From: a virus
Reading direction: 5' to 3' (one strand)
Length of the DNA: 59,557 bases
Virus record (IMG/VR): IMGVR_UViG_3300018080_000200
Location: 1 to 59,557 of that record
Every line of letters begins with the position of its first letter. Position 1 is the stretch's first letter. A program made the position numbers and the translations under genes. The notes under the pieces are model-generated. The model was given only the letters and a program-made list of their open reading frames with translations, was not told the DNA's origin and did no database searches. Below, piece by piece: positions 4,778 to 59,557 of the stretch.

Positions 4778-5041
4778 ATGAAAGTTAAGATAATCGATAT
4801 TAATACTAGTAGTAATGCGAGTATCGTTATAACATACAAGGTGTACACTGATGCTGAGGTTTATCAGTATACTGATACAATTGGGTTACATAATTTGGAA
4901 ACTTCAGACCAAAACGCTGTTTTGCTGTATATTAAAGAGGGTCTAAGTGCTCGTATTTCGCAGAAACAGGCGGAGGAAGCTTCAATATTATCCGCTACAG
5001 CAAACAGTAAAATGGATATTATGTGGGATTTAAGTGGCTGA
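4778..5041 (+). CDS. small fiber-cluster protein, unknown
   Basis: The start at 4778 is preferred over the in-frame ATG at 4763 because GGGGAA lies four bases before it; the product is 87 residues. It has a beta-rich N-terminal half and a helical C-terminal half (LSARISQKQAEEASIL). It overlaps the following GTG start by eight bases, so the two are probably translated together. Position suggests a chaperone or linker for the adhesin that follows. No family is recognised. Confidence 0.55.
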   Translation: MKVKIIDINTSSNASIVITYKVYTDAEVYQYTDTIGLHNLETSDQNAVLLYIKEGLSARISQKQAEEASILSATANSKMDIMWDLSG

Positions 5042-6269
5042 TTTTGTTTCAAAGTGGCATGTTACTCCTGGGTACATGGATATTATATTACCACTACACA
5101 GTGGTGGAGTATATAATTTTACAGTTGACTACGGAGATGGTTCAGGGCCAAAGACCGTTACTGCTTACAATGATCCAAACGCAACCCATACCTATACCGT
5201 GGCAGCTCAGTACACAGTAATAATTTCAGGGACTATAATTGGGTGGACGTTTTCTGGAAATCCAACTAATGCTAGTAAATTTGACGAGATTTTACAATGG
5301 GGAGATCTTAGACTAGGAAATACTGGACGAAATTTCTATTATTGTTCAAATCTACAAGTCACCGCAGTAGACCCATTAGATTTAACTGGCACAACTACTC
5401 TTAGTGAGATGTTTAATTTTTGCTCTGGTATGACCAGCATATATGCTGAAAATTGGGATACTAGTAGTATTACTGATATGTACTCAGTGTTTTACCATTG
5501 TACCTCTCTAACATCGGTATATATTTCTTCTTGGGATGTTAGCAATGTACTCGATATGTCTTGGATGTTTATGTTTGACCTTGCTCTTTCTACTATAGAT
5601 TTATCCTCTTGGGATACGGGCAGCGTAACAAACTTTGGGGCTATGTTTGTATATTGTCTAGGTATAGCAGATTTCAGTATGTTGGAAAACTGGGATACTA
5701 GCAGTGCGACTACTATGTGGGGTATGTTTTACTATACTAGCGTGTCTAGTTTTAGTGTGGAAAATTGGGATACAAGTAATGTTACTGATATGAACAGTAT
5801 GTTTGCATACTGCAGTTATCTAGTCAGAGTTGATTTTTTACGAGATTGGGATGTAAGTAAAGTTACTAACTTTAGTACTATGTTCCAAAGTTGTACTAAT
5901 TTAGTGGAAATAGATTTGAGATATTGGGATACCAGCAGTGCTGCGAATATGAACGCTATGTTTTACTACTGTACTTCTCTGGTTGCTCCTCATTGCTACA
6001 ACTTTAGTATTAGAAATACCACAGAATTAAATCGTATGTTTTATCAGACAAATTTACGAACAAATGTATATAGTGCTATTTTGATATCCTTTGCTAAACA
6101 AGTAACAGGCATCCCTAGCACTATACAATGGATTAATGCTATTAAGTACTATTTGGGTAGAACAGCGGATGCTAGAGATTATTTAATTAATACGGTGGGG
6201 TGGAGTATTGTAGATAGTGGTGATGATGGGGTTATGCAGTCTAGTGGAAAAGTATTATGTACTGTTTAA
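5034..6269 (+). CDS. BspA/DUF285-type repeat adhesin on the tail
   Basis: The GTG-started 411-residue protein opens with a short PKD-like beta segment (V-D-Y-G-D-G-S-G-P and T-H-T-Y). Seven repeats of about 26 residues follow, with core W-D-T/V-S-x-V-T-D-M-x-x-M-F-x-x-C-x-x-L. This is the DUF285 or BspA-like leucine-rich repeat found on surface proteins of mycoplasmas, treponemes and gut bacteria. No signal peptide or anchor is seen, so it is a virion part rather than a cell-surface protein. Its place among fiber genes supports receptor or matrix binding. The base composition here is AT-rich relative to the capsid genes. Confidence 0.75.
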   Translation: MADFVSKWHVTPGYMDIILPLHSGGVYNFTVDYGDGSGPKTVTAYNDPNATHTYTVAAQYTVIISGTIIGWTFSGNPTNASKFDEILQWGDLRLGNTGRNFYYCSNLQVTAVDPLDLTGTTTLSEMFNFCSGMTSIYAENWDTSSITDMYSVFYHCTSLTSVYISSWDVSNVLDMSWMFMFDLALSTIDLSSWDTGSVTNFGAMFVYCLGIADFSMLENWDTSSATTMWGMFYYTSVSSFSVENWDTSNVTDMNSMFAYCSYLVRVDFLRDWDVSKVTNFSTMFQSCTNLVEIDLRYWDTSSAANMNAMFYYCTSLVAPHCYNFSIRNTTELNRMFYQTNLRTNVYSAILISFAKQVTGIPSTIQWINAIKYYLGRTADARDYLINTVGWSIVDSGDDGVMQSSGKVLCTV

Positions 6270-13995: not shown

Positions 13996-16900
13996 ATGGC
14001 CACACTCCCTAGAACTCTACACGATTTTCATGATACCACTGCTACACGTAAACGCATTTTCGAGAAAGTTACGGCAGCATTTCAAGATGCATTCCCTAAG
14101 AAGGGGCGGCATACTACAGTAGAAGTTTCAAATCTCAGCATTCCCTCCAAAGAATATTCTATTGCAGATCAAAAGAAGCACATTTTAGAAGGGCGCGACC
14201 TTACAGTACCCCTTAAAGGAACCCTTAAATTACGCGATAACGACTCCGGCAAAGTTATCGAAGAGAGGACACAAACTTTAGCGCAGGTTCCGTATTACAC
14301 CGGTCGTGGAACATTTATTTCTAATGGTAACGATTTTGCAACGGTAAACCAATTCCGCCTTAATCCAGGTGTTTATACTCGTTGGAAAGATAACGGTGAT
14401 TTAGAGGCACACTTCAATCTACAACATGGCTCCGGTCTGTCATTCCGTTCTTTTTTGGAGCCTAAGACAGGTGTGTTCCGTCTGAATGTTGGTCAGGCTA
14501 ACCTTAAGTTGTACCCTATTCTACGAGCTATGGGTGTGCGGCATGGGGATATAGAAAGCGCGTGGGGAAAAGATATCGCTGCTATTAACCAGCATGCAGG
14601 TAAAGATATGTCAACTGTTAAAAAACTCTATTCTAAGATAGCAGGGTGGCGGGCTAATCCGAACTTAAGCATCCCGGAGCAAGGACAAGAGATAACCAAA
14701 GAACTCGCTAAGGCGCGTATGGACCCTTCGGTCAATAGGGTTACACTTAAAGGGGACTTCGATAGGGTAACACCTAGAGTATTTCTAAAAGCTACTTCTA
14801 AATTATTGGATATCAACAAAGGGAAGGACCGTGTAGACGATAGAGACTCGGTTGCCTTCCGGCGTGTCTTTGATGTGGCGGATTATATGTCAGAGAAAGT
14901 CCGTAAAGATGCCGGTAATATCCGCAAAAAAGTTCTTTCTAAAGTAGATCGAGAACGGTCTCTAAAAGCAATAACTCCTGGAATCTTTACCAGACAGGTT
15001 AAAGGGGCGGTACTAACAGACTCAAAGATACAGCCTGTGGAAGAAGTTAACCCTGTAGAGTTATTCGATTACCAAGAGAGGATAGTTTCGTTGGGAGAAG
15101 GGGGTATTAGCTCTGTTGAAGCGGTGCCGGAAGAAGCGCGCAATGTGCATCCTTCCCAGCTAAACAGTATAGACCCAGTACGCGGCCCTGAGTCGATGAC
15201 TGTAGGGGTAGATGTTAGAGCAGCTTATAATACATTTAAGGGTGATGACGGTCGTCTTTATAGCAGTGTTTTAAACAAGAGAGGCCAGCGAACTCTTATC
15301 CCAGCTGATAAACTTGCTAGGGCAGTAGTAGCCTTCCCAGGGCAGTATGGGAAGCGGGGTAGTGGAATAAAGGTTATCGATAAAAAAGGAACCTTACGGG
15401 ATGCTTCTGATAAAGAGGTGGAGTATTGGCTACCCCACGGACAGGGAATGTTTAGCCATGTAGCCAACTTAATCCCTGGTATTGGGTCAACAGAAGGACG
15501 TCGTCTTCTGATGGGGTCTAAATTTCAAACTCAAGCGCTACCCTTAGAAACTCCCGAGCATCCTATTGTAATGAATAAGGTTCCAGGTACAGATATACCA
15601 TTTGAGAGACTTATAGGTATGAAAATTGGTGGCCGTCCTGCGAAAGTGGGTGGCAGAGTAACTAAAGTTACGCCAAATGATATATACATAAAGGGGGCTG
15701 ATGGCAAATCAGTTCGCCATGGTGTTTATAATAACTTCTCTTTTAATAGGAAGTCTTACATACACCAAACACCGATAGTGAAACCGGGAGACGTTGTGCG
15801 TAGAGGGCAGCCGTTAGCTAAAAGTACGTTTACAGACAAAGAGGGGAACTTAGCCCTTGGACGTAACTTGGTAACAGCGTACATGCCCTTTAAGGGATAC
15901 TCTGTAGAGGATGGGATTGTTGTTAGCGAGTCCGCCAGTAAGAAGCTTACTACGGATCTTATGTATTCCGTTAACCAGCCGGTTGATAAAGAGGTAGAAC
16001 TAGGTAAAAGTAAGTATGTTACTGGTATGCCGACGACTTTCACTAAACCCCAGCTAGCCAACTTGGATAATGAGGGTGTGATTAAACCTGGCACCACTAT
16101 CAAAAAAGGCGATCCTATTATTTTAGCCCTCCATAAGCGTCCTCTTTCTGCTACTGATATAGTGCTAGGGAAGTTGCACAAGAGTCTGCGAAACTTCTAC
16201 AGTGATAAATCACATGTTTGGGATCACGACACTGATGGAACAGTTACCGACGTGGCTAAGACAAAGAAGGGCTACAAGGTTACCATTAAAACGAAGAGTC
16301 CTCTTGTTGAATCTGATAAGATAGCCAATAGGTTCGGGGGGAAGGGTGTTATTGGAAAGATCCTTCCCGATGATCAAATGCCTGTAATAGAATCAATGGG
16401 TAAGCGTGTAGAGGTACTTCTGAATCCTCTAGGAGTCCCCAGTCGAATTAACCCTATGCAGGTCTTTGAAACCTTATTAGGAAAGGTTTCAGAGAAAACA
16501 GGAAAGCCTTATTTAGTAGAACCGTTTTCTGACGAATCCAGGGTAGATTTTGTGAAACGCGAGCTTAAAAAGCATGGGGTATCAGAACAAGAGTGGTTGG
16601 TAGACCCCTCTACTGGAAAGCGGTACAAGAATCCTATTTTGGTAGGTAAACAATTCTTTACCAAATCTTTTAAAACTAGTGAGTCTGGGTTTTCTGCTAG
16701 AGAGCTTGGGAGCTACACTGCTGAGGAGCGACCGGCCAAGGGTGGAAAAGAGGGGGCTAAGAAGATTGGTGGAATGCTTATTAGCGCACTACTCGCCCAT
16801 GGGGCTACAAACAATTTACGAGAGATGTCTACTATTAAGGGAACTAAAAATAGGGAGTTCTGGAAGGCCATGCGGCTAGGCTTGCCTCTACCCTCTCCTG

Positions 16901-18363
16901 AAGTTCCTTTTATTTATAAGAAGTTTGAAGCTTACCTTAAAGGTGCTGGCGCCAACGTAGAAAAGTTTGGCCACGATACTAGAATACAACCTTTAACTCA
17001 ACAGGGTGTGGATGCCATTGCGGGGTTGCCAGTTAAAAACGATAGGCTGTTAAAGGCCAAAGACCTTTCTCCTGAGAAGGGAGGACTTTTTGATTTCGCT
17101 ATTACTGGCGGACCTTCCGGACAGCGATGGTCCCACATTCCATTAGTTGAGCCAATGCCCAATCCAGCTATGGAAGAGCCCATCCGTAGAATGTTAGGGC
17201 TAACCCAAAAGAAATACGAGTCTATTTTATCCGGAAAAGAGCAGTTTGAGGGGGCCACTGGCCCTAAGGCTATAGCGAATGGTTTGAAAGCGCTAAACAT
17301 AGACACGGAGTTTAATAGGGCTAAGGCTGAAATTAAGAGTGGTAAACGGAGTATCCGTGATGATGCCGTGAAAAGGCTTCAATACCATACTATGTTTAAG
17401 AAGACGGGTATCAAGCCTGCTGACTTAGTACTCGATAAATGGCCTGTGCTGCCGCCTCAGTTTAGGCCTATTGCAGTATCTGGAGCGGGGAATACGGTAG
17501 TTGTCTCTTCTCCCAATCTTCTTTATAAAGATTTAATACAGGCCAACTCTACTTTAGGTGACCTTAAGAAGGATCTTCTAGAAGAGGACACTACAGAGGA
17601 AAGACTGGGGCTTTATAAGGCACTAAAAGCAGTAGCAGGGTTGGGCGATCCTATAAATATTAAAACTAAAAGAAAGCGTGCTAAAGGGTTTATTAAAGAT
17701 ATTATTGGGGATATCCCAAAAAGCGGGCTGTTTCAGTCCAAAGTTCTTGGAAAGACACAGGATTTAGTTGCTAGAGCAGTAGCCATGCCAGATCCGGCCT
17801 TGAATATGGACCAAATAGGGGTACCCAAGGATGCCCTATGGAAGATGTTTAAGCCTTTTGTTATGAGACGCCTAGTGCAAAGAGGCATACCTGCTTTAGC
17901 CGCTGCGGATGCTATTGAAAATAGAACTCCGCAAGCTCAGGAGGCCCTGGAGAGAGAGATTAAGGAACGGCCGGTTATGATGGATCGTGCCCCGGCCCTA
18001 CATAAATTTAATATGATGGCAGGGTACGCAGTTCCTAGGAATGATACCAGTTTAGGGTTCCCTGTTAGTACTGCGCCAGGCTATAATGCTGATTTTGATG
18101 GAGACCAGTTGAATCTGCACGTACCTGTTACAGAGGAGGCTAAAGAAGAGGCGGTAAAGAAATTGCTTCCCAGTACCAACCTGTTCTCTATTAAAACCCA
18201 CGGAGTTCATTTTGTACCTCAGCACGAGGCGGGATTAGGGCTATATTTTGCGAGTAAGACTCCAAATAAGACCGCTGTAAAGAAGTTTAGTACGCAGGAG
18301 GAAGCCATACAGGCTTACCGCGATGGAACTATAAAGTTAAACGATCCTATAGAAGTGGGGTGA
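13996..18363 (+). CDS. RNA polymerase beta subunit fused to beta' N-terminal part
   Basis: This 1455-residue protein is a bacterial-type RNA polymerase catalytic chain. Residues 1-~980 are beta-like: Y-M-P-F-K-G-Y-S-V-E-D-G (Glu638, Asp639 = E. coli E813/D814), D-K-I-A-N-R-F-G-G-K-G-V (Lys775, Lys783 = K1065/K1073) and N-P-L-G-V-P-S-R (810-817). From about residue 1000 it is beta'-like: E-K-G-G-L-F, L-P-P-Q-F-R-P, K-P-F-V, R-A-P-A-L-H-K and the metal-binding N-A-D-F-D-G-D-Q with Asp1366, 1368 and 1370. It ends soon after (L-G-L-Y). The N-terminal beta' zinc cysteines are missing. Its position among virion genes suggests a virion polymerase; no alpha or omega gene is seen. Confidence 0.92.
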   Translation: MATLPRTLHDFHDTTATRKRIFEKVTAAFQDAFPKKGRHTTVEVSNLSIPSKEYSIADQKKHILEGRDLTVPLKGTLKLRDNDSGKVIEERTQTLAQVPYYTGRGTFISNGNDFATVNQFRLNPGVYTRWKDNGDLEAHFNLQHGSGLSFRSFLEPKTGVFRLNVGQANLKLYPILRAMGVRHGDIESAWGKDIAAINQHAGKDMSTVKKLYSKIAGWRANPNLSIPEQGQEITKELAKARMDPSVNRVTLKGDFDRVTPRVFLKATSKLLDINKGKDRVDDRDSVAFRRVFDVADYMSEKVRKDAGNIRKKVLSKVDRERSLKAITPGIFTRQVKGAVLTDSKIQPVEEVNPVELFDYQERIVSLGEGGISSVEAVPEEARNVHPSQLNSIDPVRGPESMTVGVDVRAAYNTFKGDDGRLYSSVLNKRGQRTLIPADKLARAVVAFPGQYGKRGSGIKVIDKKGTLRDASDKEVEYWLPHGQGMFSHVANLIPGIGSTEGRRLLMGSKFQTQALPLETPEHPIVMNKVPGTDIPFERLIGMKIGGRPAKVGGRVTKVTPNDIYIKGADGKSVRHGVYNNFSFNRKSYIHQTPIVKPGDVVRRGQPLAKSTFTDKEGNLALGRNLVTAYMPFKGYSVEDGIVVSESASKKLTTDLMYSVNQPVDKEVELGKSKYVTGMPTTFTKPQLANLDNEGVIKPGTTIKKGDPIILALHKRPLSATDIVLGKLHKSLRNFYSDKSHVWDHDTDGTVTDVAKTKKGYKVTIKTKSPLVESDKIANRFGGKGVIGKILPDDQMPVIESMGKRVEVLLNPLGVPSRINPMQVFETLLGKVSEKTGKPYLVEPFSDESRVDFVKRELKKHGVSEQEWLVDPSTGKRYKNPILVGKQFFTKSFKTSESGFSARELGSYTAEERPAKGGKEGAKKIGGMLISALLAHGATNNLREMSTIKGTKNREFWKAMRLGLPLPSPEVPFIYKKFEAYLKGAGANVEKFGHDTRIQPLTQQGVDAIAGLPVKNDRLLKAKDLSPEKGGLFDFAITGGPSGQRWSHIPLVEPMPNPAMEEPIRRMLGLTQKKYESILSGKEQFEGATGPKAIANGLKALNIDTEFNRAKAEIKSGKRSIRDDAVKRLQYHTMFKKTGIKPADLVLDKWPVLPPQFRPIAVSGAGNTVVVSSPNLLYKDLIQANSTLGDLKKDLLEEDTTEERLGLYKALKAVAGLGDPINIKTKRKRAKGFIKDIIGDIPKSGLFQSKVLGKTQDLVARAVAMPDPALNMDQIGVPKDALWKMFKPFVMRRLVQRGIPALAAADAIENRTPQAQEALEREIKERPVMMDRAPALHKFNMMAGYAVPRNDTSLGFPVSTAPGYNADFDGDQLNLHVPVTEEAKEEAVKKLLPSTNLFSIKTHGVHFVPQHEAGLGLYFASKTPNKTAVKKFSTQEEAIQAYRDGTIKLNDPIEVG

Positions 18364-18765: not shown

Positions 18766-19379
18766 GGAGATGTTTAATCGTAGCGGTTATATTTCCGTTA
18801 CTGCTTGGCTGTACAAGCGTGAAACACGCGTTTGTTGACTTTGGTACCAATTACGTGGAGCAAGAAGTTCCACCTATCGTGACGAAGCTTCTTAAAGAAG
18901 AGCTGGCAGAGTGGAAGATCGTCTCATTTATAAAAGACCTTAGGGCTGAAAATCCGGTGTGGGCCGACTATTTAGAGAACCTTTTGAAACAACTAAGCGC
19001 TAAGGCCAAAGAACGGTTGATCGCACAATATGAAACATTTAAGACAGCGGCTACAAAAGATCTTGAAGGTACTGGATCTGCTTTTGAAGATTTTGATATC
19101 GATAAGAACGGGCAGATTTCTTTCAATGAATTAATCCGTCTATGTGATGCCCTTGGGGATAAAGAGAAAACCTGTGTGAGAGACGGCATACAATATTTAC
19201 TCTTGCGGTACGGCATGATGTTCTTCGGCGAACCAATAAAGGATAATTTATTGGATTACCTAGCTGCCCCCACTGAGACCACTAAAGGACTTCCAAAGCA
19301 GAAAACGGATAAAGAAACCGTAGAGTATTTTGTGAAACTTCTTAAAGCAATGGATGAGGATAGTAAACCTAAAAAATGA
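18762..19379 (+). CDS. EF-hand lipoprotein between the RNAP genes
   Basis: The 205-residue product begins with Met-Arg-Arg, a hydrophobic core and the lipobox L-L-G-C (Cys17), so it is a predicted lipoprotein. Residues about 112-123 (D-I-D-K-N-G-Q-I-S-F-N-E) are a textbook EF-hand calcium loop, with all ligand positions kept. The remainder is helical. It is coupled to both neighbours by ATGA overlaps, so it is made together with the two polymerase chains. Why a calcium-binding envelope lipoprotein should sit inside an RNA polymerase operon is unclear. It could aid entry, exclusion or particle assembly. Confidence 0.75.
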   Translation: MRRCLIVAVIFPLLLGCTSVKHAFVDFGTNYVEQEVPPIVTKLLKEELAEWKIVSFIKDLRAENPVWADYLENLLKQLSAKAKERLIAQYETFKTAATKDLEGTGSAFEDFDIDKNGQISFNELIRLCDALGDKEKTCVRDGIQYLLLRYGMMFFGEPIKDNLLDYLAAPTETTKGLPKQKTDKETVEYFVKLLKAMDEDSKPKK

Positions 19380-21232
19380 GTAAGAAAACTACTGTAGGGC
19401 GCTTATTATTAGAGAAAGCTATACCTGGTGAGTTCAAGTCTTCTTTATTGAAAATGGAGAATGCTACCAAGGGGGATCTACGCAGTTTCTTCCAGCATGT
19501 TGCTGACACTAAACCGGAGGCGTATAAGGGTGTCTTACAGCAGTTAAAGGATTTAGGGGATGACATTGCCACTACGGAAGGCTCTAGCTTTTCACTTTTA
19601 GATTTTACCCCTCCATTTAATAAAAAGGAAGTTTTAAAGCCTTTATTGAGTAAAATCAACAAAATAAGGAGTAGTTCTAAGCCGTTAGAGGAGCAGGAAG
19701 CGGAAGTAGGTAACTTACTCCAGGGTGCTTCTGGGAAGATCAGGGGTCTAACGCTAGAGTCGGCTCTAAAAAGGGGAGACGTCATCTCGCAAATGGTTGC
19801 CACCGGCACTAGAGGCAAACCTGCTCAGTTGAATATGATGGTAGGCTCTCCGTTAATGTTTACTGATCACCATAATAGACCTATCACTGTCCCCGTCATT
19901 AGTTCGTACTCGGAAGGATTAAAACCTTACGAGTACTGGACTGCTAGTTACGGTGCTCGTAAGGGTGTTATCTCCGAAAAGCTCTCTCTAAGAGATGCTG
20001 GGTATATGGGGAAACAGTTAGTGAGAGTGGCTAATACTCTTCTTGTTACAGCCGATGATTGCGGAGTCCAGAATGGTATTATGGAGTCAACCTCAGGATC
20101 GGATGCTGTTGGGCGTTACTTAGCTAGGTCTGAGGGAGGATACCCGAGAAATACTTTAGTTACTGCTGAAGTATTGTCTGGTTTAGTGAAGCGTGGAGTT
20201 AAGTCGGTTATGGTGCGGTCCCCTCTAACCTGTGAAGCTACGAACGGTATCTGTAAGTACTGCTCTGGTCAAAATGAAAAGAGTAAACTACCGGAATTAG
20301 GAGAAAATGTAGGAATAAACGCAGCGCATTCGATGAGTGAACCTTTGATGCAAATGACTCTGAATGTAAAACATTCTGGAGGTGTAGCCGGTGGCGGTGG
20401 GGTTGGCGGTTTTAAGCTACTAAAACAGTTGACCACTATACCAAAAAACTTTACGCATGGTTCCATACTTTCTGAGAAAGCGGGTACTGTTGAGAAGGTA
20501 GTAGAGGCCCCGCAGGGAGGGCACTATATAACAGTTGGAGAGCAAAAGCATTACTCCCCTCCCCTATTGACTGTTATTAAAAAAGTTGGAGATTCCGTCG
20601 AACAAGGGGATCAACTTACAGATGGGATAGTCAATCCTTCCGATGTGACTAGATTAAAGGGTGTTGGGGCTGGTCGGCTATACTGGGCCCGGGCAATGGA
20701 AAAGGTTATGCGGGATAATGGGGTAAAACTGTGGAAGCCTAATTACGAGATTATAGCTAAAGGCTTAGTGAATCACGTTAGAGTAGAAGATCCAGAGGGA
20801 CTAGGGGACAGTTTACCCGATGATGTTATAGAGTACTCGGCGAATGCCAATTCATTGATTCCTCAGAGTGCATTAGTTACCAATAATGTTAGACAAACCT
20901 TAGGGCAATACCTTGGGCAGAATGTATTGCATTATACTATTGGGACTAAGATAACTCCTAGCGTTATGAGGGACATCCAACGCGCCAAAATACAAGATGT
21001 AAAAGTAACAAATACTCCCCCTAGTGTTACTCCAGTGATGCTACGTAGTGCAGATGTTCCGCAAGCAAAAAAAGATTGGCAAGCGCAATTAGGGGCAACA
21101 AATTTAAAAAGAAATTTACTAAAGGCTATCTCTCGTGGTATGATAAGTAAGAGGCACGGGCTTCATCCTGAACCAGCTTTAGCGTACGGGTTGGAATTCG
21201 GTAAGCCAGTAGCTGGAAAAATAGGGTACTAG
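19376..21232 (+). CDS. RNA polymerase beta' C-terminal part
   Basis: This 618-residue protein continues beta' where the fusion protein stops. It opens with K-K-T-T-V-G-R-L-L-L (compare T-T-V-G-R-A-L-L). The second zinc site is complete: Cys229, Cys286, Cys293 and Cys296 have the 7- and 3-residue spacing of E. coli C888/C895/C898. The trigger-loop region starts at G309-E310 and includes A-A-H-S-M-S-E-P, Gln326 and the catalytic His333, but the Met and Arg before it are Leu329 and Asn330. The break in beta' lies near the cyanobacterial rpoC1/rpoC2 split. It must pair with the beta-beta' fusion. Confidence 0.92.
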   Translation: MSKKTTVGRLLLEKAIPGEFKSSLLKMENATKGDLRSFFQHVADTKPEAYKGVLQQLKDLGDDIATTEGSSFSLLDFTPPFNKKEVLKPLLSKINKIRSSSKPLEEQEAEVGNLLQGASGKIRGLTLESALKRGDVISQMVATGTRGKPAQLNMMVGSPLMFTDHHNRPITVPVISSYSEGLKPYEYWTASYGARKGVISEKLSLRDAGYMGKQLVRVANTLLVTADDCGVQNGIMESTSGSDAVGRYLARSEGGYPRNTLVTAEVLSGLVKRGVKSVMVRSPLTCEATNGICKYCSGQNEKSKLPELGENVGINAAHSMSEPLMQMTLNVKHSGGVAGGGGVGGFKLLKQLTTIPKNFTHGSILSEKAGTVEKVVEAPQGGHYITVGEQKHYSPPLLTVIKKVGDSVEQGDQLTDGIVNPSDVTRLKGVGAGRLYWARAMEKVMRDNGVKLWKPNYEIIAKGLVNHVRVEDPEGLGDSLPDDVIEYSANANSLIPQSALVTNNVRQTLGQYLGQNVLHYTIGTKITPSVMRDIQRAKIQDVKVTNTPPSVTPVMLRSADVPQAKKDWQAQLGATNLKRNLLKAISRGMISKRHGLHPEPALAYGLEFGKPVAGKIGY

Positions 21233-21233
21233 T

Positions 21234-23441
21234 ATGAATGAAGATTTTCAAGTTGCCTTTAGTGATATGGCTTACAGTAGGTTGCAGGGAGAGGCGCAAC
21301 CACTACTGCCATACTTGCTAGGGTTTGAGGTTGTGGATAAAAACGACAGTAACACGCAAGCTGTGGGCATATTTATATTCCAAATATATGATCTACACTT
21401 ATATGTCCCTGTATTCTTTATTAATGGTGAGGTAAAGCCTGTCATTCTATTGTATTTACCTAAGCAAGATCTTTTCGTTCCTTTGACGCCAGAGTATATT
21501 AGGCATATATTGAAACGGGCGACAATGAAATTCGGGGAGGGTGTCTCTAAGGAGGAGTCTGAAGTATTTGCTCGTCCTTCTCTAGAACGCCTCATACTTC
21601 CACCTAGAACTGGTAAATATGCTTCTATAAAAGGTACCCCTAGTGATATCTTTGTTAGAATGCTCTACTCTGGATGGCAGTTAGAACCTAATGTGCTGCA
21701 CAAGGCCGGTCAGGCGTACCCTCTTCCTATCGTTCGGACCTTCGCTGAAGATACCGACCTTATTAAAGTCGCAGACAAGCTGGGAATAATGGATAGCATT
21801 TTAGCATTAGTTAGTAATGCCCCCATTATTTACAAAGAAGCTACCAAAATAGAGGATTCGAAAGTCCGGGTAGTTGAAGAAGGCGACGATGACTTCATTA
21901 CCGAGGTTAGAAAATCTAAGGTTAATAAGAAGAAGGCCATTCGTAAACGTTTTGTAGTAACCGATGACGGCGACAACACAGTTCAACTTTATGACACTCA
22001 ATACACGGAAAAGATACAGAATCCCAATTCTAACGGAGTGTACCTTTTAATAGCAGCCGATGGTTCGCTCGTACCTGTGATTGTTATAATGTCTCCAAAA
22101 GACTGCAACACTATGCATGGGAGTACTCATACATTAGTTTATAGCTGGGAAGACGATCAGTATGCTATCCGTCCGGCAGAGAGGATTTGGGTAACTTCTA
22201 GTTATAAGGTCGATAACCTTGACAAGGTTATGAAACAAGGCGTAGAAGTAGACAAGGTTAAAGTAGGCAAAATGTATTTTTTAATGTGCCCTTCAGCTAT
22301 GATGTTTACTTCAGGGCATGCCTCTGAACCTTTTTTAGTTAAGAATAAGGTTACAACTACTGATGGTACTGTCTATTTGTCCGTTAAACCTTGCTACTAT
22401 AACGATGATTGGATCTCTAAACCCAGTGAAGGGTTAAACAGAGAGCAGTCTGACGGTATGACCGGATTCTTGGGCGAGGACCGTAGAGGTCAATCTTCGG
22501 AGACTTATTCTGAAGACGATGAGTACAAAGGGGGGCCGCGTCTTCTCGCTAAGATTTATATGACGGATTCCGATAGCAGGGACCTGACTCAAATAGGAAC
22601 TGGGTTAGCGGTCCCTAAACACTATCGCTTCTTTGAACTTACCGGGGAATGTGGTAGTTGCGGTTCATTACAAATTGGAGATCCTGGAACTTTAAATACT
22701 GCTATTCGTTTTAAACGTGGGTACAAGATGCTTAAGGTTCGCTCTGACGGGGCTGAGTATTTTACAAGTTTAGACGAGGCCCCTTGGAAGAAGTTTAATA
22801 AAGAGGCTGCTCTAGCCCAGCATTTGGTAGGACTTGGATTGAATACCCAGTCTATAGAGAGAATACTGGAGGACGTAGGGGCATGCTTACAGCATAAGTA
22901 TATGGTTAAATCTTCACAGTACAATCAAATGGACCCCACGTTGATGACCGATCCTACTTATTCTGCTGCATTCACACAGATACCAGAAGAAAGAATCTTT
23001 CCCGCGACAACGGAGCCTCCTCTTAACCCGCCGAGGCCTATGGGCGAAGGTGAGAATCTTTACCTGGGTCCTAGAGGAGTGCCTGGGGTATTAGGCCAAG
23101 CACCCGCTAACCCAGTAGGAGCGATGAAGGGGCTTGAGGCACTGGGGGATGATCAGCTGTTTGAGCACGGTATGCTTGCAGCGATTGCGTCTACCAGCGA
23201 TACTCTAGGGATGGTCAGTTCTTTTATACCTACTCTTAATGCGGCTGTTGATAAGTTAGCTAGAATTATTTTCTTATTTTGGTATAAGGCAGAAGACTTC
23301 CAAGATCTATTTCAAATAACGGAATATAATACCCAAGAGGATATGCTGGTACAAACGTTTAAGAATCTTGGTACTTTAGTCCTATCTTTTCAGAAAAAAG
23401 CTGCACCAGATAATGTGGAGTTAGAGCTTCATGGAAGTTGA
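21234..23441 (+). CDS. large virion structural protein of jumbo-phage type
   Basis: This 735-residue protein starts at the ATG one base after the polymerase stop. The first 100 residues (LLGFEVVDKNDSNTQAVGIF, V-P-V-F-F-I-N-G-E, Q-D-L-F-V-P-L) match a pattern I associate with a large virion protein seen in many big phages, whose role is unsettled. A middle part is rich in charged residues. The C-terminal part has Pro-rich linkers and a helical end. It is the largest unknown in the head region and could be an internal head or connector component. I do not see portal signatures. Confidence 0.65.
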   Translation: MNEDFQVAFSDMAYSRLQGEAQPLLPYLLGFEVVDKNDSNTQAVGIFIFQIYDLHLYVPVFFINGEVKPVILLYLPKQDLFVPLTPEYIRHILKRATMKFGEGVSKEESEVFARPSLERLILPPRTGKYASIKGTPSDIFVRMLYSGWQLEPNVLHKAGQAYPLPIVRTFAEDTDLIKVADKLGIMDSILALVSNAPIIYKEATKIEDSKVRVVEEGDDDFITEVRKSKVNKKKAIRKRFVVTDDGDNTVQLYDTQYTEKIQNPNSNGVYLLIAADGSLVPVIVIMSPKDCNTMHGSTHTLVYSWEDDQYAIRPAERIWVTSSYKVDNLDKVMKQGVEVDKVKVGKMYFLMCPSAMMFTSGHASEPFLVKNKVTTTDGTVYLSVKPCYYNDDWISKPSEGLNREQSDGMTGFLGEDRRGQSSETYSEDDEYKGGPRLLAKIYMTDSDSRDLTQIGTGLAVPKHYRFFELTGECGSCGSLQIGDPGTLNTAIRFKRGYKMLKVRSDGAEYFTSLDEAPWKKFNKEAALAQHLVGLGLNTQSIERILEDVGACLQHKYMVKSSQYNQMDPTLMTDPTYSAAFTQIPEERIFPATTEPPLNPPRPMGEGENLYLGPRGVPGVLGQAPANPVGAMKGLEALGDDQLFEHGMLAAIASTSDTLGMVSSFIPTLNAAVDKLARIIFLFWYKAEDFQDLFQITEYNTQEDMLVQTFKNLGTLVLSFQKKAAPDNVELELHGS

Positions 23442-24111
23442 TCACCTTAGTAAGCCGTTTGATTGGCGTGCGCAAAACGCAAGATCTTTGGAGCCAACTA
23501 TAGATGCGCTCTGCAAAGACTACCGCGATTACCTACGCGGCGATAATACCGATTACCGGTTTAGAGTAGCCAGGCAATTGCATGATAAGCCTGCTTTTAA
23601 AAGGCAAGTGGAGGCGATGCTTTTAGCCGGATTTTCTAGTGAGGAGTGCGCCGCTAAATTTAAAATAGGACCGGAGATCGTAGACACTTACAAGCAGCTA
23701 TTCTTTGACCTTGATACCAAAAACTCGGAAGCAGAATGCCTAGAGGCTGTAATGAATGACCCTTCTTATAGCGGCGATCAGTTTAAAGTAGTGGCTAGAC
23801 TACTGGGTCGAGAAGCTTTGATGTTTACTCTGGGGTACAAGACGAATATCACAAAGGAGTCTTCCGATAATATACGCCGCCGCCTGGAGTACGCGCTCCT
23901 CTTGCAGTGCGCGAGAATAGAGTTAATTGACCCAGAGGAAGACCAGCAGTTCAAAATTATCTTGAAAGCTATTGAAACATTAGGTAAATTAGAGTCTACG
24001 AAGGCTGATGCCGCACTTTCTAATGTACAGCAGATACTTTCTACAATTTCTGATAAGCTGACAGTTTACCAAGGTAAGCCTAAGAGAAGCAGAGAGGATT
24101 TGGGAATATGA
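23431..24111 (+). CDS. helix-turn-helix protein, possible small terminase-like
   Basis: This 226-residue, mostly helical protein contains near residue 65 a stretch L-L-A-G-F-S-S-E-E-C-A-A-K-F-K-I-G-P-E that fits a helix-turn-helix, followed by D-T-Y-K-Q-L-F-F-D. Similar segments occur in small terminase and other DNA-recognition proteins. It lies before the prohead protease and capsid genes, where packaging genes are often found. No large terminase follows, so the assignment stays open. It overlaps the previous gene by 11 bases. Confidence 0.45.
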   Translation: MEVDHLSKPFDWRAQNARSLEPTIDALCKDYRDYLRGDNTDYRFRVARQLHDKPAFKRQVEAMLLAGFSSEECAAKFKIGPEIVDTYKQLFFDLDTKNSEAECLEAVMNDPSYSGDQFKVVARLLGREALMFTLGYKTNITKESSDNIRRRLEYALLLQCARIELIDPEEDQQFKIILKAIETLGKLESTKADAALSNVQQILSTISDKLTVYQGKPKRSREDLGI

Positions 24112-46959: not shown

Positions 46960-48570
46960 ATGCGAACAACGTTTACCCCAGTAGTAGTAGATATAGAAAT
47001 AACTCGAGAGGGAACTACCTTATTCGATTCTTCTTCCGGTACAAAAGCTATATACGTAGCAGAAGTACAAATTTCTAATAGACTTAATAATATTCCTGAG
47101 GCAATTATTGGTATAGGGTTTAGGAACAGAGATGCCCATAAGCAAATACTTAGTATCTTTCCCCAAACTGGCAAGGGGGCTATGTTTGCTAAAGTAGATA
47201 TTACTGTTCGTGGGTTTAGGACAAAAAGGTCTGCTATAACTGAGCCTCATAATATCTTCTCGGGCTACGTAACAGGGTATGGGATATCAAAGAGTTCTAA
47301 GGCAGGAACTCAATATACAATAAACGCTAGAGGGGGTTTATACCTACTTAGCCAGACTCCTATCGCTACTATAGGATTCCACCCAGCTAGTCCTTTTGCT
47401 TGGGGAGTATTTAAACTTAGCTCGATGGGCTCGGATAACACGAATATGGCACCCGGTCAATTACTGGGAGTTGTGGATGTTAGGGATACTGCTTGGCAAA
47501 TATTCTCTCGTATGTTCTCTAGATTCACTGAGGTTATGACTAAATCTAACGCGACTGTTAATTCTGCATTAGGCAATGAATGGCATACAAGGGCTTTCCG
47601 TGCTGCGCAAGAAGCTTTTAAATTAACAGAGGGACAACAGCAGTTTCTAAAAGATGAAATAGCACTAGTAACAGAGTTAGATAACCTTGTACTTCCGTGG
47701 GAGGGAGATCGGGCTGCTGTACACGCCTTTCTTTATAGAGCCTTCACAGATTATCAAGCCACGTTCTGGCACCTCATTATAGAGTTATGCCAGCACTTCG
47801 GGGTTGTAATAATTTCAGTAGGAAATAAAGTATATATTTCAGCATTAACCCCTCTCGACACTTCAGGGATTAACTATTTAGCAGCGGAAGAGACTACATC
47901 TATCGAAGTATCCGACTTCCCGTTTAGCGTACCCACTAGAGTTCTACTAACTGCTCCAAAATATAACAGTTCTGTCTCTGCGGGGCAAATAGACGGTGAT
48001 CCTTTCATATTATACCCCCCAGAGAGTAAATTAACTGAACAAGAGAAAAAAACTGGGGTTAAAACCCTGCTATTTCAAGCCCCGGGGGTAGTCGGAAAAT
48101 TAACTAGTGAAATTAAAATAAAGGCGTATAATGATATAAAACTCCACAAAGAGGTAAGTAGAGATAAAAATAAGCAGTCGGTACAGTCTATGAAGGATGC
48201 TATTGCTAATTTAGATAAACCTAAACTTGGTGAAACCTACGCCGCGTATGTGCTGATGGCTAAAAAGTTTGAACAGCGTTTGGGAACTGTGTTAAGCAGA
48301 TATCGCCCTGATATTATTCCAGGATTTGGAGGTGTTGTCGTAATCGGAGATAACCTAAATATGCTTGGGTACGTAACCGAAGTGACACACAGCCTCAGCG
48401 CTACATCACAAACAGCATTGACTCAAACATTATTCTCTCATGTCCACTACGCGAGTGAATTGACTAATCCGGAGATTATCAAGAATCCCCTATACCCTAG
48501 CTTCGACACGCAGGCTTCTGCTACCAAAATACTCACAGATGTAGGATTCTTGGGAGTGGTGCCCTCATGA
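46960..48570 (+). CDS. baseplate hub protein
   Basis: The 536-residue protein has the build of a gp27/gpD-type hub: an N-terminal beta domain, an F-S-G-Y-V-T-G-Y-G strand, an inserted helical part, then a C-terminal domain with R-P-D-I-I-P-G-F-G-G-V-V-V-I-G and a strand that ends near F-S-H-V-H-Y. Such hubs link the tail tube to the central spike. It lies upstream of the sigma-like gene and of the wedge genes. Confidence 0.65.
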   Translation: MRTTFTPVVVDIEITREGTTLFDSSSGTKAIYVAEVQISNRLNNIPEAIIGIGFRNRDAHKQILSIFPQTGKGAMFAKVDITVRGFRTKRSAITEPHNIFSGYVTGYGISKSSKAGTQYTINARGGLYLLSQTPIATIGFHPASPFAWGVFKLSSMGSDNTNMAPGQLLGVVDVRDTAWQIFSRMFSRFTEVMTKSNATVNSALGNEWHTRAFRAAQEAFKLTEGQQQFLKDEIALVTELDNLVLPWEGDRAAVHAFLYRAFTDYQATFWHLIIELCQHFGVVIISVGNKVYISALTPLDTSGINYLAAEETTSIEVSDFPFSVPTRVLLTAPKYNSSVSAGQIDGDPFILYPPESKLTEQEKKTGVKTLLFQAPGVVGKLTSEIKIKAYNDIKLHKEVSRDKNKQSVQSMKDAIANLDKPKLGETYAAYVLMAKKFEQRLGTVLSRYRPDIIPGFGGVVVIGDNLNMLGYVTEVTHSLSATSQTALTQTLFSHVHYASELTNPEIIKNPLYPSFDTQASATKILTDVGFLGVVPS

Positions 48571-49574
48571 TACAAAATGGGATTACTTTTGGTGATAAGT
48601 TTGAGGGTGGGTACGACATTCTCCAGGGATTGGAAAAAGTTGGGATTTGCCTACTGGCTGCAAAAGACTCTTCCGTGGTGATTGTCAAAAAGGCAGCTAT
48701 ACCAGATAGACTACTAGTACCGGGATTAATACAGCAGGTATGCTGTTTGTATGGCCCCGATAGTGTTTATGTAGACGGTGTTCCGTTGCCATCAACCGTT
48801 ATCTCATCAAAAGGATTAGAGAAAACTGCTTCGGGGTTTTGGTTAAATGTACAAGGGACCTTTGAAAAACTGTCTGCTACCTCTAAAGAGCAAATGGTGT
48901 ATGCTTACGGTGACTGGAAATCTTCTCCGACTAAGAAGAACATGGCGTATGTCCTTAGAACTTTAAACCCAGTCATTAATAGAGAGTTACACACCTACAA
49001 GGGTACTATCCCAGAAACGGTACTACGAGGTATGGCGAAAAAGATAGCCATAGCCTCTGTAAAGAACTATAACCCTAACAGGGGAGCCGCACTTAGTACC
49101 CACTTGGTACACCAGCTGCAGCAACTACACCGAAAGAACTACGAATCCTTTAGTACAGCACGTCTTCCAGAGCACTTACAGCGCGGAGTTGGGGGTTTCT
49201 TACGCGCTAAGAGCTATCTTAGAGACACACTTGGTAGAGAACCAACCGTAGCCGAATTGGCAGACGAAATGAACTGGGGTGTTAAAAACGTAGCACAAAT
49301 TCAGAGACGACTGCGAAATGAGGTAGGTGATAAAGTACTAGAGTTCGACCCCATCCACTCCTCTGAAAGCGAGGAGGATGCTCGGGTAGACTACTTCTAT
49401 AATGATTTGAACCCTCAAGATAAGATTATTTTTGAGCACACCACTCGTTACGGAGGAGCGGAGATACTCCCCAAGAAGGCTATCGCCACAAAACTAAGTA
49501 TTTCCCCTGCAAGGGTGACGCAAAGAGCTAATAATATAGCAAAGAAGTTTAAGGCGGTGTTTAGACAAGGATGA
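48567..49574 (+). CDS. sigma-70-like transcription factor in the baseplate operon
   Basis: The 335-residue protein matches sigma factors over its last 215 residues. Region 2-like: about 120-192, with Y-N-P-N-R-G-A-A-L-S-T-H-L (compare F-D-P-x-R-G-x-x-F-S-T). Region 3-like: about 199-255, with R-L-P-E-H-L and L-G-R-E-P-T-V-A-E-L-A-D-E-M. Region 4-like: about 279-330, with L-N-P-Q-D-K-I-I-F-E and L-P-K-K-A-I-A-T-K-L-S-I-S-P-A-R-V-T-Q (a helix-turn-helix). Residues 1-115 have no sigma match. It is coupled by ATGA to hub and next gene, so it is expressed with virion proteins. It is a candidate partner of the phage RNA polymerase. Confidence 0.8.
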   Translation: MIQNGITFGDKFEGGYDILQGLEKVGICLLAAKDSSVVIVKKAAIPDRLLVPGLIQQVCCLYGPDSVYVDGVPLPSTVISSKGLEKTASGFWLNVQGTFEKLSATSKEQMVYAYGDWKSSPTKKNMAYVLRTLNPVINRELHTYKGTIPETVLRGMAKKIAIASVKNYNPNRGAALSTHLVHQLQQLHRKNYESFSTARLPEHLQRGVGGFLRAKSYLRDTLGREPTVAELADEMNWGVKNVAQIQRRLRNEVGDKVLEFDPIHSSESEEDARVDYFYNDLNPQDKIIFEHTTRYGGAEILPKKAIATKLSISPARVTQRANNIAKKFKAVFRQG

Positions 49575-49906
49575 GTACAGAATACACAGATTTTGTTACA
49601 GATGAAGCCCAGCAGTGGACAGACTACGCTGAAGCTGTTAAGAATAAACAAAAGCCTGCATGGTATGCCTACACCGAGCGCAGTACCAAGGCTTTAGGAG
49701 CATCCTCCCTTAAAGCGGCTGACTGCCCTAAATCGGCAGGGTATAAAATAGCCGGGGATGCTATTGCCCTTAGGAAGAGGGCGGTAATGATGCGTAATAG
49801 GAAGAGAAACCACTTCTTTACATTTGCAGTTGTTCACGCGCAAAGTAAAGCGGACCAGTTAAACGCACAACTAGGTATTGTAAGAGAACTAACAGAAGAC
49901 TTCTGA
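49571..49906 (+). CDS. small helical protein after the sigma-like gene
   Basis: The 111-residue protein starts in an ATGA overlap and shares one base with the next start. It is basic and helical, with Y-T-E-R-S-T-K-A-L and A-I-A-L-R-K-R-A-V-M-M-R-N-R-K-R. It has no baseplate signature, so it might act with the sigma-like factor. No family is recognised. Confidence 0.5.
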   Translation: MSTEYTDFVTDEAQQWTDYAEAVKNKQKPAWYAYTERSTKALGASSLKAADCPKSAGYKIAGDAIALRKRAVMMRNRKRNHFFTFAVVHAQSKADQLNAQLGIVRELTEDF

Positions 49907-58669: not shown

Positions 58670-58904
58670 GAAGAAGGCCTTTTTAGAGGGGTTCCGAGAA
58701 GAGTTTGAGAAGAACGCTGGGAAGCTTTATGAAATAGCAAGCTTTCTAGAGGACCTAAACTCAGTAGTTCCGGCAATACTAGGTGGTGGAGTTGGAGCAG
58801 CAGAACTATTGCGCTCGAAACCGAAAACTCCAGCCGATGTATTAAGAGCCTCAGGTATTGGTCTAGGAACAGGAGAACTACCTAGCAAACTAAATAATGA
58901 ATGA
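58656..58904 (+). CDS. motif plus glycine-zipper protein, shorter copy
   Basis: The 82-residue protein (two adjacent ATGs at 58653 and 58656 are both possible) starts K-S-L-E-K-K-A-F-L-E-G-F-R-E-E-F-E-K-N. A Gly/Ala hydrophobic stretch follows (P-A-I-L-G-G-G-V-G-A-A-E-L-L). The C-terminal 45 residues match the later gene at 59105 except for a gap of 49 codons between G-L-G-T-G and E-L-P-S-K-L-N-N-E, so it looks like a deletion derivative of a tandem duplicate. Confidence 0.65.
   Translation: MKSLEKKAFLEGFREEFEKNAGKLYEIASFLEDLNSVVPAILGGGVGAAELLRSKPKTPADVLRASGIGLGTGELPSKLNNE
58769..58816 (+). repeat. 48-bp exact repeat, copy 1
   Basis: This 48-base block, beginning TCCGGCAATACTAGGTGG, is identical to 59185-59232. 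It codes for P-A-I-L-G-G-G-V-G-A-A-E-L-L-R-S in both glycine-zipper genes. Identity at every third position shows a very recent duplication. Confidence 0.9.
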
Positions 58905-58916
58905 TTATGTATGTTT

Positions 58917-59078
58917 ATGAATAAAGAATTCATTTTTGTAGAATCACTAGTACCGTGGGTTACACGGGATTTTCAAGCCTGTAGACATGGAAGCGCTGAT
59001 CATATCTTCGGATTTGATGAAACTACTGTGGTTGAAGCAGGAACCGGAAACGCGCATTCGTGCGCACTTTTTGGATAG
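58917..59078 (+). CDS. 53-residue ORF in the repeat
   Basis: This open frame starts at an ATG with no clear SD and ends in TAG inside the repeat. The product starts M-N-K-E-F-I-F-V-E-S and ends A-H-S-C-A-L-F-G. The same frame is open in the partial copies at both window ends. Two differences between copies both change an amino acid, which does not argue for selection on a protein. It occupies the gap between two glycine-zipper genes. It could be an untranslated repeat instead. Confidence 0.35.
   Translation: MNKEFIFVESLVPWVTRDFQACRHGSADHIFGFDETTVVEAGTGNAHSCALFG
59052..59072 (+). terminator. possible intrinsic terminator, internal repeat copy
   Basis: Same GCGCA-TTCG-TGCGC hairpin with AC and TTTTT as near the left window edge. 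It lies between the two glycine-zipper genes and inside the 53-codon frame, so a coding role and a terminator role would compete. Stem length of only five pairs makes strength uncertain. Confidence 0.35.
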
Positions 59079-59104
59079 CAGGGTACTCCTTATCTAGCAG
59101 AGTA

Positions 59105-59467
59105 ATGTCCCCACCAGATCAACAAAAAGAGTTGGAAAAAAAGGCCCGTAATACTCAACTTTACCACATGGTACTAGGAGCTGCTCCGGCAATACTAGGT
59201 GGTGGAGTTGGAGCAGCAGAACTATTGCGCTCAAAAAATAAAACTTCGGACGATACTCTGAGAGCAGCAGGCCTTGGCCTTGGAACAGGAGCTGGGGCTA
59301 ATTTCGGAAGAAGAACTGGGTATTGGGCAGGGCATGGACTTTCGAGTATTCTTCCGTACTACTTTGGCATTCCTTTTGACAGAGATATTGCTACAACAGT
59401 TCTAGAAAGCCTAGGAACCCTCGGCGGAGGCCTTGGAGAACTACCTAGCAAACTAAATAATGAATGA
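59105..59467 (+). CDS. glycine-zipper protein, longer copy
   Basis: Start at 59105 is preferred over 59060, which lies in the repeat. The 120-residue product starts M-S-P-P-D-Q-Q-K-E-L-E-K-K-A-R. A Gly/Ala-rich stretch (P-A-I-L-G-G-G-V-G-A-A-E-L-L) follows, then a second hydrophobic Gly-rich half (L-G-L-G-T-G-A-G-A-N-F-G, G-Y-W-A-G-H-G-L). It lacks the GF motif that starts the shorter copy, so the duplicates differ in both N-terminus and middle. SD is weak. Confidence 0.6.
   Translation: MSPPDQQKELEKKARNTQLYHMVLGAAPAILGGGVGAAELLRSKNKTSDDTLRAAGLGLGTGAGANFGRRTGYWAGHGLSSILPYYFGIPFDRDIATTVLESLGTLGGGLGELPSKLNNE
59185..59232 (+). repeat. 48-bp exact repeat, copy 2
   Basis: Identical to 58769-58816. 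See that entry; here it sits in the longer glycine-zipper gene. Confidence 0.9.
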
Positions 59468-59479
59468 TTATGTATGTTT

Positions 59480-59557
59480 ATGAATAAAGAATTCATTTTT
59501 GTAGAATCACTAGTACCGTGGGCTACACGGGATTTTCAAGCCTGTGGACATGGAAGC
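59480..59557 (+). CDS. partial small ORF in the repeat (N-terminal part)
   Basis: The first 26 codons of the 53-codon repeat frame, beginning M-N-K-E-F-I-F-V and running off the window. If the molecule is circular it would join the partial frame at the left edge. Coding status is uncertain for the same reasons as the complete copy. Confidence 0.25.
   Translation, partial: MNKEFIFVESLVPWATRDFQACGHGS
59523..59557. repeat. 35-bp terminal direct repeat (identical to bases 1-35)
   Basis: The last 35 bases of the window equal the first 35 exactly, including the two positions where the internal copy differs. This is the signature used to call a contig circular, but here it lies inside a longer repeat that also has an internal copy. 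Confidence 0.95.

Follow-up and report, generated by a model that had tools for sequence, protein, structure and literature searches.

A sigma-70-family protein encoded among the baseplate genes of a phage lineage with its own multisubunit RNA polymerase

The window, as we call the whole 59,557-nt stretch of viral DNA that was analysed, carries a tail module in which the gene for a sigma-like protein, here named sigma A, lies between baseplate genes, and it also carries the genes of a multisubunit RNA polymerase (Table 1). The sigma A open reading frame (ORF) begins with the ATG at 48567, as given in the first-pass annotation, which had placed the gene between baseplate hub and wedge genes and described it as coupled by ATGA overlaps to tail genes. 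Two such overlaps are present, one with the ORF at 46960-48570 and one with that at 49571-49906. No terminase or replication gene was recognised in the 59,557-nt window, and it is therefore interpreted as one part of a larger myovirus genome, despite a 35-bp terminal repeat at the contig ends; the genomes of its relatives measure 150-220 kb. A circular, complete genome closed through that repeat was considered and doubted, given the lack of such genes and the position of the repeat in degenerate duplicated sequence. The duplicated segments that share the repeat (58700-59557 and 1-175) may be an assembly artefact or an array of gene remnants. Elsewhere in the window, positions 5034-6269 encode a repeat protein near tail-fibre-like genes, whose repeats resemble, by eye, leucine-rich repeats of the BspA/DUF285 type (W-DTS/DVS-N-V-T-D-M motif).

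Table 1. Positions in the window of sigma A, its neighbouring genes and the phage RNA polymerase
Feature	Position	Strand	Basis or remark
RNA polymerase beta fused to N-terminal part of beta', 1455 aa	13996..18363	+	NADFDGDQ at residue 1364
beta' clamp-helix segment, residues about 1171-1215, presumed sigma-2 docking site	17506..17640	+	alignment to B. subtilis beta'
RNA polymerase beta' C-terminal part, 618 aa	19376..21232	+	PF04998 E 4.2e-24; Arash Gp216 E 4e-63
Baseplate hub gene (GpP/gp27-like), 536 aa	46960..48570	+	weak PF21683 match; conserved neighbour
ATGA overlap, hub stop / sigma start	48567..48570	+	
Sigma A, tail-module sigma factor, 335 aa	48567..49574	+	homology, family profile, predicted fold
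Orphan N-terminal extension, residues 1-80, low-confidence model	48567..48806	+	no detectable relatives
Sigma region 2, residues about 112-200, with NPNRGAALSTH segment	48900..49166	+	SigA alignment, RpoD superposition
Sigma region 3, residues about 203-255	49173..49331	+	Pfam Sigma70_r3
Sigma region 4, helix-turn-helix, residues about 277-331	49395..49559	+	PHROG_351, family profile, model
ATGA overlap, sigma stop / next start	49571..49574	+	
Small tail gene, 111 aa	49571..49906	+	positional match to Arash Gp11 (detected in virions)
gp25-like baseplate wedge gene, 154 aa	49906..50370	+	Arash Gp12, D69 0013
Baseplate J / gp6-like wedge gene, 505 aa	50367..51884	+	PF04865 E 1.4e-7, PHROG_6 E 1.2e-17
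gp7-like wedge gene, 534 aa	51884..53488	+	Arash Gp14

When sigma A was searched as a single sequence, matches were obtained to the PHROG_351 'sigma factor' profile (residues 163-331, E 1.7e-11), to Pfam Sigma70_r3 (E 9.6e-7, above the gathering score), to NCBIfam RpoS (E 4.8e-8) and to RpoS in the PDB (E 3.4e-5). Region 3 was the only part to reach a curated cut-off in this way, and region 4 was weak in the Pfam search; an alignment of 39 sigma A relatives was needed to make regions 2 and 4 clear. Bacterial SigA matched the profile of this family without a break through regions 2, 3 and 4 (E 8.8e-20), with the alignment spanning 2.1-2.4, and Sigma70_r3 was matched by 36 of the 39 members. The AlphaFold model of sigma A has pLDDT > 90 across most of residues 100-335, including the helices at residues 269-334, and superposes on solved sigma factors; for RpoD (7xya_F) against residues 112-195 of the model, the rmsd is 2.1 A and the Z score 11.4. 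Invariant positions in the family are P170, G173, L176 and P226, and Y168, T178, R189 and E202 are near-invariant. Judged by profile and model, the ORF at 48567-49574 encodes a genuine member of the sigma-70 family in which regions 2, 3 and 4 succeed one another, as had been proposed from the letters of the DNA; because SigA matches the profile continuously and the fold matches solved sigma factors, we regard it as a sigma factor and not as a generic helix-turn-helix protein.

In housekeeping sigmas, a tryptophan pair in region 2.3 serves in melting of the -10 element; the pair is a feature of housekeeping sigmas and not of the whole family. Tryptophan stands at the first equivalent position in none of the 39 aligned relatives and at the second in five. 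Since alternative and ECF sigmas also vary at these positions, the loss does not exclude membership of the sigma-70 family, and because the pair is lost, -10 recognition by sigma A is probably not of the housekeeping kind.

Single-sequence searches of IMG/VR with sigma A or with the window polymerase confirmed no relatives, and alignments were needed for this purpose. An alignment-based scan found the tail sigma in 48 IMG/VR contigs. Among cultured phages, the nearest relatives are Salmonella phage Arash and the Vibrio phages D69, D148 and D181, which share with the window the same sigma family (28-29% identity over residues 114-331 or 114-289), the same position of the sigma gene in the tail block among baseplate genes, the same fused polymerase (33-34% over 97-100%) and the same second polymerase subunit. 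Capsid, sheath, polymerase, gp25-like, J-like and gp7-like proteins of the window all match proteins of Arash or D69. Cellular genomes were also searched; the matches there, mostly in MAGs labelled as Verrucomicrobia/Lentisphaerae and with E no better than 4e-11, were judged to be ordinary bacterial sigma factors.

The hub gene lies upstream of sigma in nearly all of the 48 contigs, often abutting it, and where enough downstream sequence is available, gp25-, J- and gp7-like genes come next; in some subgroups several kilobases separate hub and sigma. Placement between hub and wedge genes is thus a trait of the lineage. The immediate surroundings of the gene vary, with one additional small gene in Arash-group phages and extensions elsewhere, while the sigma core is constant.

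The N-terminal part of sigma A, about 80-110 residues, yielded no relatives in IMG/VR, among all fetched loci or among the ORFs of 48 loci, which agrees with the earlier remark that it has no sigma match. The same annotation had suggested that this part anchors the protein in the tail or to the polymerase. That role is unsupported: the segment has no relatives, is modelled with low confidence and is missing from the Arash-group orthologues, all of which measure 229-234 aa. Because these orthologues do without it, the extension cannot be a general packaging signal. In the Arash group, a separate small gene (Gp9) precedes sigma, and comparison of its product with the sigma A extension, by eye only, revealed no evident similarity. 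As a separate observation, many family members have a KxA(A/S)-like motif ahead of the sigma core, sigma A among them (EKTAS, residues 84-88). A recurring N-terminal-type motif, G-F/Y...K-x-A(A/S), is also seen in window ORFs 175-525, 374-1075, 1072-1524, 1497-1952 and others; KxA[AS] occurs 41 times in window proteins versus 25 in shuffled proteins (maximum 39 of 300), and the motif could be a targeting or prohead-protease signal.

The phage-encoded multisubunit polymerase named in the first-pass annotation was recovered as a beta-beta'N fusion (13996-18363) and a separate beta' C-terminal protein (beta'C; 19376-21232). Domain matches were strong (PF00562 E 9e-55, PF00623 E 2e-22, PF04998 E 4e-24), and bacterial beta matched the phage polymerase profile with E 1e-126. 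In bacteria, sigma-2 docks on the clamp helices of beta'; the phage beta' retains this segment, by alignment to B. subtilis beta', at residues about 1171-1215 of the fusion protein, where sigma A would be expected to dock. Two genes past beta'C, a 226-aa ORF (23431-24111) has a sub-threshold Sigma70_ECF match (PF07638, E 0.013, residues 52-84) and is perhaps another helix-turn-helix protein.

Sigma A and this polymerase are found together in both directions of search. The same beta-beta'-fused polymerase is present on 34 of the 48 sigma A contigs and on 29 of the 30 that measure at least 120 kb; one scan returned 313 polymerase-bearing IMG/VR contigs, and in a reverse sample of 25 contigs of at least 85 kb, chosen by polymerase only, sigma A was found in 20, including all 14 of at least 150 kb. 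The proposed association of the two thus stood. Arash-group contigs have one polymerase locus per genome. Sigma and polymerase distances correlate closely (r 0.97, n 18, 0/5000 permutations), as would be expected for joint vertical descent, a pattern that does not by itself show physical interaction. Five further phages were drawn for comparison from the polymerase search or as a terminase relative of Arash. The tail sigma is absent from all of them: Vibrio 1.031.O has a single, canonical sigma, and Vibrio Va2, Cobetia Carin-5, Rhizobium RHph_Y65 and Colwellia 9A have no sigma match of any kind.

These distributions bear on whether the sigma, packaged or not, might instead work with the host RNA polymerase core, as T4 gp55 does, while the phage polymerase uses another factor. 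The protein retains a sigma-70 fold and a core-facing region 2, polymerase-less jumbo phages are thought to use sigma in this manner (PMC7824862), and the motif TGkTATAAG of Arash and D69, described below, resembles the host extended -10 element (TGnTATAAT) and could be read by host sigma-70 and polymerase. We nevertheless consider dependence on the host core unlikely, in view of the near-perfect two-way co-occurrence of sigma A with the phage polymerase, the divergence of region 2.2 and of the region 2.3 tryptophans from the pattern that fits bacterial RNAP, and the comparison phages, whose polymerases are not of this type and which have no sigma or, in 1.031.O, a canonical one only. It is also opposed by the number of genomes in which sigma A has no companion: with the PHROG profile, the tail sigma is the only sigma detected in 16 of the 30 contigs of at least 120 kb. 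As only the other 14 have at least two sigmas, the tail sigma is the universal one.

Evidence on packaging comes from Arash. Mass spectrometry of purified Arash virions lists beta (Gp206), beta' (Gp216) and the sigma orthologue Gp10, the last with 24 unique peptides, and a second Arash sigma, Gp196, does not appear in the virion protein table (PMC10585845). Spectrum counts from Table 2 of that study were rejected as a measure of stoichiometry, given that hundreds of spectra are listed even for proteins represented by 2 unique peptides, and unique peptides per length were used in their place. Computed from the published data (PMC10585845), Gp10 has 10.3 per 100 aa, close to the capsid protein with 9.8; beta has 8.4 and beta' 6.6, against 0.2, 0.6 and 0.7 for primase, ligase and uracil glycosylase. 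As 116 Arash proteins were detected, some clearly non-structural, some carry-over exists in the particle preparation; its authors allow either a role for such enzymes as infection begins or their carry-over (PMC10585845). The proposal that the polymerase and sigma may be packaged is supported by these data from a relative. We infer that the window phage packages its sigma as Arash does, although packaging is known for this one relative only and its sigma is 28% identical to sigma A. Because sigma and polymerase are both found in purified particles of a cultured relative, the lineage probably injects a ready-made transcription machine. Directly after beta', Arash also has a DNA helicase gene (Gp217; L002 10442-11860) with a polymerase-like virion peptide density of 8.1 per 100 aa. 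The window has no gene at this position, and beta'C is followed by a Gp218 homologue.

Virion presence could also arise by carry-over or co-packaging with bound polymerase of a late sigma that has no early role and redirects the phage (or host) polymerase to the promoters of structural genes. Location of the gene in the late tail operon suits this, as do the non-structural proteins in the Arash proteome and the carry-over raised by its authors (PMC10585845). The peptide density of Gp10, however, is at the level of the capsid protein and more than ten-fold above those of primase, ligase and uracil glycosylase, and Gp196 is absent from the virion table; the second sigma of D69, moreover, lies in a leftward, early-type gene block, which fits the second sigma as the later-acting one. 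On balance, a purely late function appears improbable. Even harder to credit, in our estimation, is a sigma domain co-opted into a structural part of the baseplate, or into a tether between polymerase and tail, that does not recognise promoters. Fixation of the hub-wedge position across the lineage, detection in Arash virions and loss of the region 2.3 tryptophans would all be compatible with such a part, but regions 3 and 4, including the helix-turn-helix, are kept in the family, the gene surroundings vary while the sigma core does not, and standard baseplates contain no such component.

The remaining evidence concerns a second sigma and promoter-like motifs. Each of the six long Arash-group genomes that were looked at first contains two main sigma genes and no more. 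In Arash, GGTATAAG occurs in 31 copies, 30 of them on the minus strand, which is the strand of the leftward metabolic genes; 25 of the 31 are intergenic (P 1e-22), most lie 20-68 nt ahead of a start codon, and the longer consensus around them is TGGTATAAGtAAaGTGTAA. The D69 counterpart, TGTTATAAG, occurs 13 times on the minus strand and never on the plus strand. TAAAATA, found on the structural strand and often back-to-back with the TGkTATAAG-class motif, is distributed 27 plus to 5 minus in D69 and 11 to 4 in Arash. Arash and D69 thus have two strand-segregated promoter-like motifs, TGkTATAAG on the metabolic strand and TAAAATA on the structural strand. Shared promoter-like motifs, which the first-pass annotation had recommended seeking before early genes, are in outline present in these two complete relatives, but the same search recovered no clear promoter motif in two others (G007 and G012), and the 59,557-nt window contains no TGkTATAAG promoter set, as expected for a late-gene fragment. 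The sole plus-strand GGTATAAG of Arash (L001 11588) lies in a short gap before gp9-gp10(sigma), and this 8-mer is unchanged in L007, L062, L065, L075, L076, L077 and L088 while neighbouring bases vary; it may be a promoter of the early type that serves sigma from within the late operon.

Taken together, we favour, as the probable explanation, that sigma A is the promoter-specificity partner of the lineage's own polymerase and is packaged with it to start early transcription. The protein would be made late, from within the baseplate operon, and packaged in the virion together with the beta-beta'N fusion and beta'C; the injected sigma-polymerase holoenzyme would then transcribe early genes without waiting for host RNA polymerase. 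On this view, sigma A would bind the phage polymerase, recognise promoters of the TGkTATAAG class and be the first to act. Where present, the second, more canonical, non-virion sigma (Arash Gp196 and others) would probably take over another promoter class, for which TAAAATA is the candidate. A fuller scheme, which we offer tentatively and with some doubt, is that a complete holoenzyme is packaged and delivered with its sigma fixed to the baseplate or adjacent to it, so that the enzyme meets its TGkTATAAG promoters as the DNA enters, and that this core is afterwards redirected to late promoters of the TAAAATA class by the second, non-virion sigma. If true, this would constitute a self-contained two-sigma transcription programme, independent of host polymerase.

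Several known systems invite comparison. The mReC phages are metagenomic tailed phages, some > 200 kb, whose beta and beta' are recognisably homologous to the bacterial subunits (PMC7481178), and the lineage of the window phage is very likely theirs; sigma, virion and packaging do not come up in the text of the mReC paper (Weinheimer and Aylward 2020, PMC7481178). In phiKZ and AR9 (Chimalliviridae and relatives), one multisubunit polymerase set is packaged and injected for early genes, and early motifs are AT-rich and -10-like (PMC7598289, PMC13282480). A phage multisubunit polymerase is common to those phages and the present lineage, and TGkTATAAG of Arash and D69 may be a counterpart of their early motifs. 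Two split polymerases are found there, in contrast to the single locus of Arash-group contigs, and their specificity subunits gp68/gp226 lack sigma sequence similarity; reviews describe polymerase-encoding jumbo phages as having no sigma homologue (PMC7824862, PMC13282480). The lineage described here, by contrast, encodes a sigma-70-family protein, packaged in Arash, and many of its genomes have a second sigma. Arash itself differs from the window in the unextended sigma and in the small gene Gp9 ahead of it. The late-strand motif TAAAATA is similar to the late element of T4, TATAAATA. T4 gp55 and SPO1 gp28 are phage-encoded sigma family proteins that redirect transcription, acting on host polymerase and made after infection; neither is known to be a part of the virion. 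Poxvirus virions package a multisubunit RNA polymerase together with an early transcription factor for promoter specificity. The likeness to poxviruses is a functional analogy only, the proteins and hosts being unrelated.

Phage sigmas, virion polymerases and the presence of sigma in Arash virions (PMC10585845) were already known. The Arash study (BMC Microbiol 2023, PMC10585845) lists the sigma as a virion protein and does not treat it as a lineage trait, discuss its placement among baseplate genes or define a promoter for it. A search of the open-licence literature found no paper on a 'virion sigma factor', and earlier descriptions elsewhere are possible. What appears to be new, from the genomes compared here, is the lineage-wide combination of a baseplate-encoded sigma with a multisubunit polymerase. 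Reviews up to 2026 hold that phage multisubunit polymerases work without sigma homologues, and here a large lineage combines a deep-branching polymerase and a sigma-70-family factor of its own. In Arash and D69 it can now be tested how phage multisubunit RNAPs recognise promoters, whether early transcription runs independently of the host and how the pairing of sigma and core evolved, with two concrete candidate promoter sequences at hand, TGGTATAAG and TAAAATA.
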